64,000 nt of DNA. Origin: Thermoplasmata archaeon (lineage in GTDB: Archaea > Thermoplasmatota > Thermoplasmata > Halarchaeoplasmatales > Halarchaeoplasmataceae). Below the pieces are notes generated by a model that saw only the letters and a program-made list of their open reading frames with translations, did not search any database and was not told where the DNA came from. The DNA lies in contig PWHR01000078.1 of NCBI GenBank assembly GCA_003554965.1, forward strand, positions 1 to 64,000, read 5' to 3'. Positions 11,858 through 13,717 of the stretch are shown piece after piece. The stretch's first letter is position 1. Each line of letters begins with the position of its first letter. The position numbers and the translations under genes are program-made.

Positions 11858-12724
11858 TCAGTGCGCATAATTCTCCAAGAACTCATCTAATCTTGGTTCC
11901 TCTAGGTCTTCATCTCTCGGTTTCTCTGGTTTCTCATCTTTGTTTTTTTCTACGTATTTCAAAGCTTCAAGCACTGCTGGCTCTTTTTCCTCTTCTTCAT
12001 ATTCAACATCAGAAATGGTTTCAGTCAGATTCATCGCATCCAGCCCTATCTCCTCAAAGAACTCCGTAATGTAATCCATTTTCAGATTTTTGACCACTCT
12101 AGAAAGTAGTTTATCAGCCATGGCGAACGCGTCTTTAACAGATTGTTCGCCATCAGCTAGGGTTTGGTCGTTATCAAATACCGTGGTAGCATGGCTCAGT
12201 TTAGATAGGTGGTTCAATATGTTTTCTGCTCTTTTTTGTCTGTTTTCTCCTTCGGTGGAAAAAGGCATTACAGCATATGTGAACACCATCTTTCCGTTCC
12301 TTTTCGCTAGATCTGCGATCACTTTGGAAGCACCTCCTCCGGTGCCCCCTCCTAATCCTGCTACAACAACCACCATGTCAGACTCTTCAATAGTACTCAA
12401 AATCTGCTCTTCGCTGCGCTGAGCTGCTCTTTTTCCTACTTTTGGATCACCGTTAGCTCCTTTGCCATCGGTCAGGTCTTTGCCTATCAACATCTGTCTG
12501 TCTGCTTTCAAGTCTTCCAAAACTCTTTCATCTGTGTTCACTGCTATCGTTTTCACATTGTTCATTCCCTGTTCAGTGATGTGCTCGATCGTATTACATC
12601 CACATCCACCTACGCCTACCACGTGTAGGTTTGGCTCATAAAGGAGTGCATCCACAATCTCCCCAGCCGTTTCGTCTAGGAACTCGCTTTCGGGTGAAGG
12701 GTATTCGGGGCTTTTTTCTTCCAT
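11858..12724 (-). CDS. FtsZ-like GTPase lacking the C-terminal domain
   Basis: A 288-residue tubulin/FtsZ-superfamily protein. The GTPase domain is complete: VVGVGGCGCNTI (about 36-47), AVNTD, the tubulin signature as AGLGGGTGGGASKV (usual GGGTGTG changed to GGGTGGG), VMPFSTEG, FDNDQTL and helix H7 (VKDAFAMADKLLSRVV). After H7 the expected T7 loop with its catalytic acidic residues (NxDxxD) and the whole FtsZ_C domain are missing. Instead come about 90 residues, mostly acidic tail, ending in RLDEFLENYAH. A frameshift is unlikely: only 141 non-coding bases separate its end from queF. It lies 57 bases after an RHH gene and has a GGAGGAT ribosome site. It may be a regulator or cap of a true FtsZ encoded elsewhere (inference). 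Confidence 0.85.
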   Translation of the reverse strand: MEEKSPEYPSPESEFLDETAGEIVDALLYEPNLHVVGVGGCGCNTIEHITEQGMNNVKTIAVNTDERVLEDLKADRQMLIGKDLTDGKGANGDPKVGKRAAQRSEEQILSTIEESDMVVVVAGLGGGTGGGASKVIADLAKRNGKMVFTYAVMPFSTEGENRQKRAENILNHLSKLSHATTVFDNDQTLADGEQSVKDAFAMADKLLSRVVKNLKMDYITEFFEEIGLDAMNLTETISDVEYEEEEKEPAVLEALKYVEKNKDEKPEKPRDEDLEEPRLDEFLENYAH

Positions 12725-12781: not shown

Positions 12782-13171
12782 TCATTTTCTCATGTATTCG
12801 CTTTCTTCCTGAGCAAAACTCTTGTAAGTCTCGACCTTACTGCTCAATGAATTGACAGCGTCATATTGTTTCTCCAGTTTTTCCATATCTTCTTTTAGAA
12901 GCCCTTCTCTGACGAGTTCATGGATAGCGTCCTGCCAATCATTGTAATGTCCCATCTTGATGAGATAACAAATGTTGTTCTTGATTTTTTTCGGCAGTTT
13001 TATCCTTTCAGGTACTTCTTCCTGTCCTTTAGGTTCACTGTATCTCTCGATGTAATCAAGAGCGGCTTCCCTTAAAAATTCAGAGCGGTTGCTGAAATCA
13101 TGTCTCGCTATGAATGAATCAATGACTTCGAGGTCTTCGTCGGACACCCGGAGTGAAACCTTTTTTTCCAT
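12782..13171 (-). CDS. ribbon-helix-helix regulator upstream of ftsZ-like gene (CdrS-like)
   Basis: A 129-residue protein. Residues 1-45 form a ribbon-helix-helix DNA-binding domain: basic strand KKVSLRVSDEDLEVIDSF, then helices with FSNRSEFLREAALDYIE. Residues 60-129 are a second, helical domain (IKNNICYLIKMGHYNDWQDA) ending in a coiled-coil-like tail. The placement directly upstream of an ftsZ-family gene matches the CdrS-ftsZ2 linkage of haloarchaea, where the RHH protein controls division genes; CdrS itself is shorter. It is probably autoregulatory, given the palindromes in its own promoter. Confidence 0.8.
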   Translation of the reverse strand: MEKKVSLRVSDEDLEVIDSFIARHDFSNRSEFLREAALDYIERYSEPKGQEEVPERIKLPKKIKNNICYLIKMGHYNDWQDAIHELVREGLLKEDMEKLEKQYDAVNSLSSKVETYKSFAQEESEYMRK

Positions 13172-13290
13172 CGTATAAACACCTTATTCGGACGATTGTC
13201 CTACATTATGACATTACGTCATACTTATTTCACCTTAGCGTAGGACATAATACACATGTATAAAGGAATATATAAACATTTTCCATACCT
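13172..13290 (-). promoter_or_regulatory. promoter and palindromic operators of the RHH-ftsZ operon
   Basis: On the minus strand a TTTATATA box at 13269-13276 predicts a start near 13245. Two dyads sit at and after that point: TGTCCTAC (13197-13204) mirrored by GTAGGACA (13240-13247), and TATGAC-n5-GTCATA (13207-13223). An AAGGTG site precedes the ATG. Placement over the transcript start and leader is what repression by a dimeric RHH protein would need. Further upstream, TTACATAT occurs twice (near 13333 and 13351). Confidence 0.6.
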
Positions 13291-13492
13291 AATAATCATA
13301 CGAGGATATAATTTGAAATACTTATTACAGTATTACATATAAGTTAACGTCTTACATATGAAGCTTTAGGTGACCATTTTACAAACGATGTCTAGAAACT
13401 CATAACCAAATGTCGGCCGGAAGATTTATTTTACAGATATCGATAGGGCCTTACCGAGACAATAGAAAAGACTTTCCACCTAGTCATACGCC

Positions 13493-13563: not shown

Positions 13564-13643
13564 GCCACCGTAGCTTAGGCCGGCAGTCCGTCGGAAAGGA
13601 TTTCCAACTTACTGCCGACTAACCTACTCGGCTCGTTCCACTC
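13564..13643 (+). repeat. partial copy of the tRNA-Thr 5' end plus hairpin spacer
   Basis: The 23 bases at 13564-13586 are identical to the first 23 bases of the complete tRNA-Thr at 13644. The copy then diverges into 57 bases that cannot finish a tRNA: no anticodon arm, no T-arm. The insert contains GGAAA-GGA-TTTCC (13593-13605) nested in CGGCAGT (13581-13587) with ACTGCCG (13611-13617). It is therefore a 23-base direct repeat flanking a hairpin segment. Integration usually copies the 3' part of a tRNA, so a 5' copy is unusual. Confidence 0.75.
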
Positions 13644-13717
13644 GCCACCGTAGCTTAGGCCGGCAGAGCGGCTGACTTGTAATCAGCAGGTCGTGGGTTC
13701 AAATCCCACCGGTGGCT
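13644..13717 (+). tRNA. tRNA-Thr (UGU)
   Basis: GCCACCG pairs with CGGTGGC. The anticodon arm GCTGA-CTTGTAA-TCAGC gives TGT, and the T-arm is GTGGG-TTCAAAT-CCCAC. The discriminator base is T and CCA is not encoded. It is the intact member of the duplicated pair described just upstream. Confidence 0.93.

Follow-up and report, generated by a model that had tools for sequence, protein, structure and literature searches.

A conserved FtsZ reduced to its GTPase domain and paired with an RHH gene in Thermoplasmata, a possible GTP switch

A gene in the window (the whole 64,000-nucleotide stretch of Thermoplasmata archaeon DNA that was analysed) encodes a protein of 288 amino acids, here called FtsZ-short, which consists of the FtsZ GTPase domain and H7 and has neither a T7 loop nor a C-terminal domain (CTD) (11858..12724, minus strand). 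Our preferred explanation, with a probability of roughly 0.45, is that this G-domain-only FtsZ serves as a GTP switch coupled to the ribbon-helix-helix (RHH) protein encoded next to it and helps to control the cell cycle or division, by a mechanism that we infer. A GTP switch had already been suggested in a preliminary description of this DNA; we keep the idea in RHH-coupled form, with GTP binding predicted from the pocket. The strongest functional clue is the combination of a constant RHH gene and an operator array upstream of FtsZ-short.

The open reading frame starts with ATG at 12724 and ends at 11858 on the minus strand, and the next gene downstream, queF, lies on the opposite strand. The Tubulin GTPase domain is the sole Pfam domain in the protein (residues 34–188, profile positions 3–185 of 190, E = 5e-41), and the NCBIfam ftsZ model TIGR00065 aligned over 17–207 of 353 only, with 189.9 bits against a cut-off of 295.2. 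FtsZ-short has the canonical nucleotide-binding signatures GGxGxN, NTD, GGGTGTG, and PFxxE; in a set of 39 short-form proteins these take the forms GVGGCGCN, NTD, GGGTGxG, PFSxE, and ND, all present in FtsZ-short and most of them invariant. No NxDxxD T7 motif was found after H7 in FtsZ-short or the other short forms collected; when 28 named cellular FtsZ loci were checked for the same simple pattern, 24 had it (a short form being among the four misses), as did 26 of 27 viral loci. FtsZ_C (PF12327) had no match in FtsZ-short or elsewhere on its contig, which argues against a detached or frameshifted CTD near the gene, and a profile search gave five FtsZ_C matches elsewhere in the genome. Judged by its T7 loop, its CTD, and the TIGR00065 cut-off, FtsZ-short would thus not qualify as a canonical FtsZ. 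FtsZ is also a better match to it than CetZ or Tubulin_2: Tubulin_2 scored 14.2 bits, below its cut-off, and the best PDB sequence matches were FtsZs (1e-38, over residues about 30–220), other tubulin-like chains reaching 3e-13 or weaker. Pfam, TIGR00065, FtsZ_C, and the signatures therefore agree with the preliminary description, which had reported a complete GTP-binding half with no T7 loop or C-terminal domain. Its further claim, that such a protein could not complete the active site of a neighbour, is supported by the absence of the T7 acids.

FtsZ-short is a real gene and not a broken one. The short form occurs in 13 of the 16 genomes of the window's family (the three genomes without it are 64, 83, and 90% complete), and the 12 other copies are 276–295 amino acids long and 50–80% identical. 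The preliminary description had considered that relatives might have a full-length protein here and the window an indel; the equally short orthologues contradict this, and together with the lack of a CTD on the contig they rule out an assembly error or frameshift. The dN/dS ratio versus genus members was about 0.05 where it could be computed, with dS near or at saturation, and purifying selection acts on both the core and the tail. The notion of a degenerate or mis-assembled FtsZ with no function, for which the missing half and nothing else speaks, can practically be dismissed given this ratio, conservation across families, a single branch in phylogenetic trees, an invariant pocket, and a constant partner gene.

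An AlphaFold2 model based on 39 sequences (mean pLDDT 76, core mostly >90), which improved on an earlier one from 10 sequences, has the shape of a normal FtsZ N-terminal domain with H7, followed by one helix and then an unstructured tail. The GTP-binding domain (residues 33–190; 12155..12628, minus strand) is predicted to be complete on the basis of pLDDT values mostly >90, the conserved signatures, and a fold search, in which the nearest folds were FtsZ of S. aureus and M. jannaschii (best rmsd 1.2–2.4 Å, 39–40% identity). H7 and the post-H7 helix (residues 196–237; 12014..12139, minus strand), modelled as helices 196–225 and 230–237 with low confidence past about residue 220, lie where T7 and the CTD would begin; E221 and F222 are invariant in the window-family alignment. 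The remaining part (residues 238–288; 11861..12013, minus strand) is an acidic, probably disordered tail of low pLDDT with the end LDEFLENYAH. The preliminary description was right that an acidic tail stands in place of the missing parts, but this tail is not featureless: two motifs are kept inside the window's family, P-x-[VIL]-[LI]-x-A-[LI] and the C-terminal L-[DE]-x-[FN]-L-[ED]-[NT]-[YH]. Short forms of other families have tails which differ from these.

Using a window-family profile, we detected further CTD-less FtsZs of about 220–300 amino acids in families f3, f6, f15, f20, f29, f30, and f32. The conservation in relatives raised by the preliminary description is thus borne out, with the short form present in the window's family and in seven or more further families of this class. 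Among the families tested, mcrA was present in f6, f20, f29, f30, and f32 and absent from the others, and an f6-type short form is also encoded in L193, a record named as a Methanomassiliicoccaceae archaeon. Because of mcrA and this record, the mcrA-positive families are presumably Methanomassiliicoccales, and f6 would be Methanomethylophilaceae or a close relative. In a sample of the phylum, confirmed short forms among the matches listed were found within the class only; the matches listed for other classes were full-length, except for two short open frames (G499 and G480). Two side observations concern distribution. Identical short FtsZs were found in two genomes of different genera (L018 in G007 and L019 in G015; contamination of G015, 6%), which suggests a misbinned contig. 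In near-complete f17 g32 genomes (G046, G062, G094, G106, G117, and others), the short-form FtsZ profile had no match, though such profiles match full-length FtsZ elsewhere; in G046, FtsZ_C, SepF, and Snf7 were also without match.

In a quick tree of 78 rows, all short forms fell on one side of a branch and all full-length FtsZs on the other (SH-aLRT 98, the only support calculated for this tree), and a second tree of 55 rows and 180 GTPase columns gave the same split (95/95); both trees are unrooted. The full-length proteins nearest the short forms look FtsZ2-like, a label which we take from haloarchaeal FtsZ2 and from the CdrS gene upstream. Separate truncation in each family is not favoured, as the short forms lie on one side of a branch, albeit in unrooted trees. 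A viral origin was also rejected: many viral contigs (L233–L300) encode a full-length FtsZ of about 310 amino acids with an intact T7 (NIDFAD), and no short form was seen among the 26 readable of 27 viral loci checked, whose proteins have intact T7 and are mostly of that length.

A full FtsZ on which FtsZ-short might act, as the preliminary description had envisaged, does exist: the same genome encodes full-length FtsZ1- and FtsZ2-type proteins. One of them (L005, contig C82 of G000) has the T7 sequence NLDFND and an FtsZ_C match of 1.4e-16. With an RHH gene of its own, whose product is clearly related to CdrS (1.6e-22), it forms a normal CdrS-FtsZ2 pair. Synteny of CdrS and ftsZ2 is known across Euryarchaeota (PMC7439475). 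In Haloferax, CdrS controls transcription and influences division (PMC8406309); it is a regulator of cell division that shares a transcript with ftsZ2 (PMC7439475, PMC8406309). The short-form locus resembles the CdrS-FtsZ2 operon of Halobacterium and Haloferax (PMC7439475, PMC8406309) in having a homologous GTPase domain and an RHH gene upstream on the same strand. It differs in the absent T7 loop and CTD, in a longer RHH protein (about 125 amino acids) which matches CdrS distantly, and in a different upstream site, so that of the marks of a CdrS-FtsZ2 unit it has the upstream RHH gene and lacks both a CdrS match above cut-off and a full-length FtsZ2. The simplest history is that a cdrS-ftsZ2 unit was duplicated and that one of the two copies lost its filament half. 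Based on the tree and the shared RHH neighbour, the short-form family probably arose once, the T7 loop and CTD having disappeared after duplication of this operon.

Other FtsZ-like families have been described as well. FtsZl1 and FtsZl2 are highly diverged members of the FtsZ superfamily which carry other C-terminal regions (PMC2875224), and FtsZl1 lacks the standard elements around T6-H7 and the known FtsZ C-terminal domain (Makarova and Koonin 2010, PMC2875224). The short form, in comparison, is clearly an FtsZ and has no extra domain. The open-access papers searched describe other FtsZ-like families and CdrS-FtsZ2, but we came across none on an FtsZ family without a CTD from Thermoplasmata or Methanomassiliicoccales.

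The partner gene of FtsZ-short, rhh (12782..13171, minus strand), comes first in the pair, separated from ftsZ-short by 57 bp, and encodes a 129-amino-acid protein with an RHH_1 domain (1.7e-6). The CdrS model matched it at 2.2e-7 with 30.7 bits against an equivalog cut-off of 100, a cut-off which is haloarchaeal and which even the clear CdrS relative of L005 misses (79.3); the partner is a distant relative of CdrS. An RHH gene lies directly upstream on the same strand at 46 of 46 short-form loci in at least eight families, with a gap of 7–322 bp in the first 40 loci. It is this never-changing element that leads us to prefer an RHH-coupled GTP switch over capping of FtsZ filaments.

Upstream of rhh we found an operator-like array (13198..13355) with six matches to GTANKAC (13198–13204, 13218–13224, 13240–13246, 13330–13336 on both strands, and 13349–13355). 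It is the densest 200-bp stretch for this motif in the 64 kb, and three of 5000 dinucleotide shuffles reached six matches. Across 40 loci, GTANKAC occurs upstream of short-form RHH genes at 12.6 per kb versus 0.70 per kb, an 18-fold enrichment which is descriptive, the motif having been picked after inspection of the same loci; more weight lies in the motif turning up again in independent families. The CdrS-FtsZ2 pairs (L005, L021, L022, and L024) are preceded by a conserved inverted repeat of about GTCTGAC...GTCAGAC and have no GTANKAC there, and this repeat is likely a CdrS-type operator in the class. Close to the array, a tRNA-Thr(TGT) gene is located at 13644–13717 (plus strand), and a 32-nt copy of its start (88% identical) at 13564–13595 may be a tRNA remnant or integration scar.

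The window RHH protein also weakly matched the model of aCcr1, the RHH cell-cycle regulators of Sulfolobales (7e-4). The aCcr1 site is presumably AGTATTACA, and the same letters occur in the array at 13329–13337; aCcr1 regulates ESCRT-type division genes and is not known to be paired with an FtsZ. Small DNA-binding adaptor genes beside cytomotive NTPase genes are a feature of TubZ-TubR and ParM-ParR, and the two-gene layout, with an adaptor-like RHH gene first and a site array ahead, would also fit a DNA partition module in which the RHH protein sits on a centromere-like array and works with a cytomotive GTPase. We consider such a module very improbable: the TubZ-TubR and ParM-ParR NTPases are complete filament formers on plasmids, whereas FtsZ-short has lost the filament-forming half, the pair has been retained in family after family, as a chromosomal gene would be, and many methanogen loci have only 0–4 GTANKAC copies, which fits an operator rather than a centromere.

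Under the RHH-coupled switch, FtsZ-short would bind GTP, as its intact pocket and model suggest, and would build no FtsZ-type protofilaments and show no self-activated hydrolysis, because every lower-face element is gone. The RHH protein would bind the GTANKAC array and autoregulate the pair. Depending on whether it carries GTP or GDP, FtsZ-short would either alter RHH activity or signal to the division machinery via the C-terminal tail. Several features are consistent with this: a near-invariant, complete GTP pocket alongside missing T7 and CTD, purifying selection, the constant RHH gene, a conserved site array distinct from the inverted repeat of ordinary CdrS-FtsZ2 pairs, and one branch in the trees. 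The RHH gene beside FtsZ has a precedent in CdrS (PMC7439475, PMC8406309). However, a shared operon and autoregulation would be equally expected of an ordinary regulator of some cell-cycle GTPase gene, CdrS-FtsZ2 being an example, and a switch needs GTP turnover, yet no T7-like acid was identified either in cis in FtsZ-short or in the RHH protein. It also counts against the switch that full-length partners exist in the window's organism.

With such partners available, FtsZ-short might instead be a one-sided cap or hetero-subunit. Loaded with GTP, its nucleotide face would attach to the exposed T7/CTD face of a full-length FtsZ, for which the genome's own FtsZ2 is the likeliest candidate; filament growth would be stopped or limited, and the T7 acids of FtsZ2 would hydrolyse the GTP in trans. 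Its top face is intact and its bottom face gone. In S. aureus FtsZ (SaFtsZ), the next subunit supplies two T7 acids for hydrolysis, D210 and D213, and new monomers are believed to join by bringing their GTP-bound top surface to the exposed T7 surface (PMC8936486), which would make a top-only subunit a natural cap; capping by MciZ, as cited in PMC5414002, offers a precedent. SaFtsZ residues D46 and R143, which contact the next subunit, correspond to D65 and R162, both kept in FtsZ-short. These residues touch the nucleotide too and cannot separate docking from switching, a point which counts against the switch. In an alignment by eye, the position of the SaFtsZ salt-bridge residue R67 is D in the window protein, which disfavours a cap. 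Capping of full-length filaments is possible in the window's organism, but as an explanation of FtsZ-short we place it second, and regard it as unlikely, in view of family f6.

When 81 f6 genomes were searched for tubulin-family proteins, the best match was usually an open frame of about 230–300 amino acids. Those that were translated proved to be short forms, with the exception of L103 and L104, two second homologues that do carry a CTD. FtsZ_C had no match in any of seven f6 genomes tested; Snf7 was likewise absent from these seven and SepF from three of them. The short form is the best FtsZ in f6 and, in these seven genomes, the only well-preserved one left, so the usual FtsZ mode of action is impossible there and capping of full-length filaments cannot be the shared function. 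The proposal of the preliminary description that the protein caps, nucleates, or poisons a full FtsZ therefore does not hold as a general function, f6 having kept the short form and its RHH gene. This persistence argues for a function independent of FtsZ filaments, as expected of an RHH-coupled switch.

A second, degenerate FtsZ homologue was found in 12 of 20 f6 genomes tested with a profile to which some of the 12 had contributed. The same profile gave no match to a second tubulin-family protein in G020, G167, G175, G203, and G252 (94–99% complete), a result which is not proof of absence. The degenerate homologue aligns into the CTD of full-length FtsZ (with a weak FtsZ_C match in L104), has lost its T7 acids, and likewise has an RHH gene upstream; many members are without the P-loop and the NTD motif as well. 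Degenerate FtsZs of this kind, with T7 lost, the CTD at least partly kept, and GTP signatures lost in many, were seen at L213–L226 in f6 and at L006 and L227–L232 in other families. That many f6 members lost the GTP pocket yet kept part of the CTD would suit a complementary partner of the short form, but as an obligate partner (whether of the L006 type or the f6 second homologues) they were rejected because of their presence in only 12 of the 20 genomes, which also speaks against a cap.

As the f6 short form is the best and sometimes sole recognisable tubulin-family protein where FtsZ_C and Snf7 are missing, it might also assemble by itself in a non-FtsZ manner (e.g., as nucleotide-face dimers or H7-mediated bundles) and serve as a structural division protein where FtsZ was lost. 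This we think improbable and place third, since the longitudinal contacts known for FtsZ depend on the part that is gone, three of the seven genomes have no SepF, and in other families the short form coexists with complete FtsZ sets. A broader proposal, which we advance only tentatively, is that this class turned FtsZ into a non-polymerising GTP switch coupled to a transcription factor and that f6 lost canonical FtsZ and divides without any FtsZ that forms filaments of a known type.

Polymerisation driven by GTP is what defines FtsZ and tubulin, whose catalysis depends on the next subunit. A conserved family of probably single origin which has the GTP pocket and lacks the polymerisation half would reveal what this domain does alone, and provides a naturally occurring test case for models of capping and trans-activation. 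The f6 genomes pose the question of how a methanogen divides without canonical FtsZ and without detectable Snf7, and the constant RHH partner links the short form to the emerging theme of archaeal RHH cell-cycle regulators.
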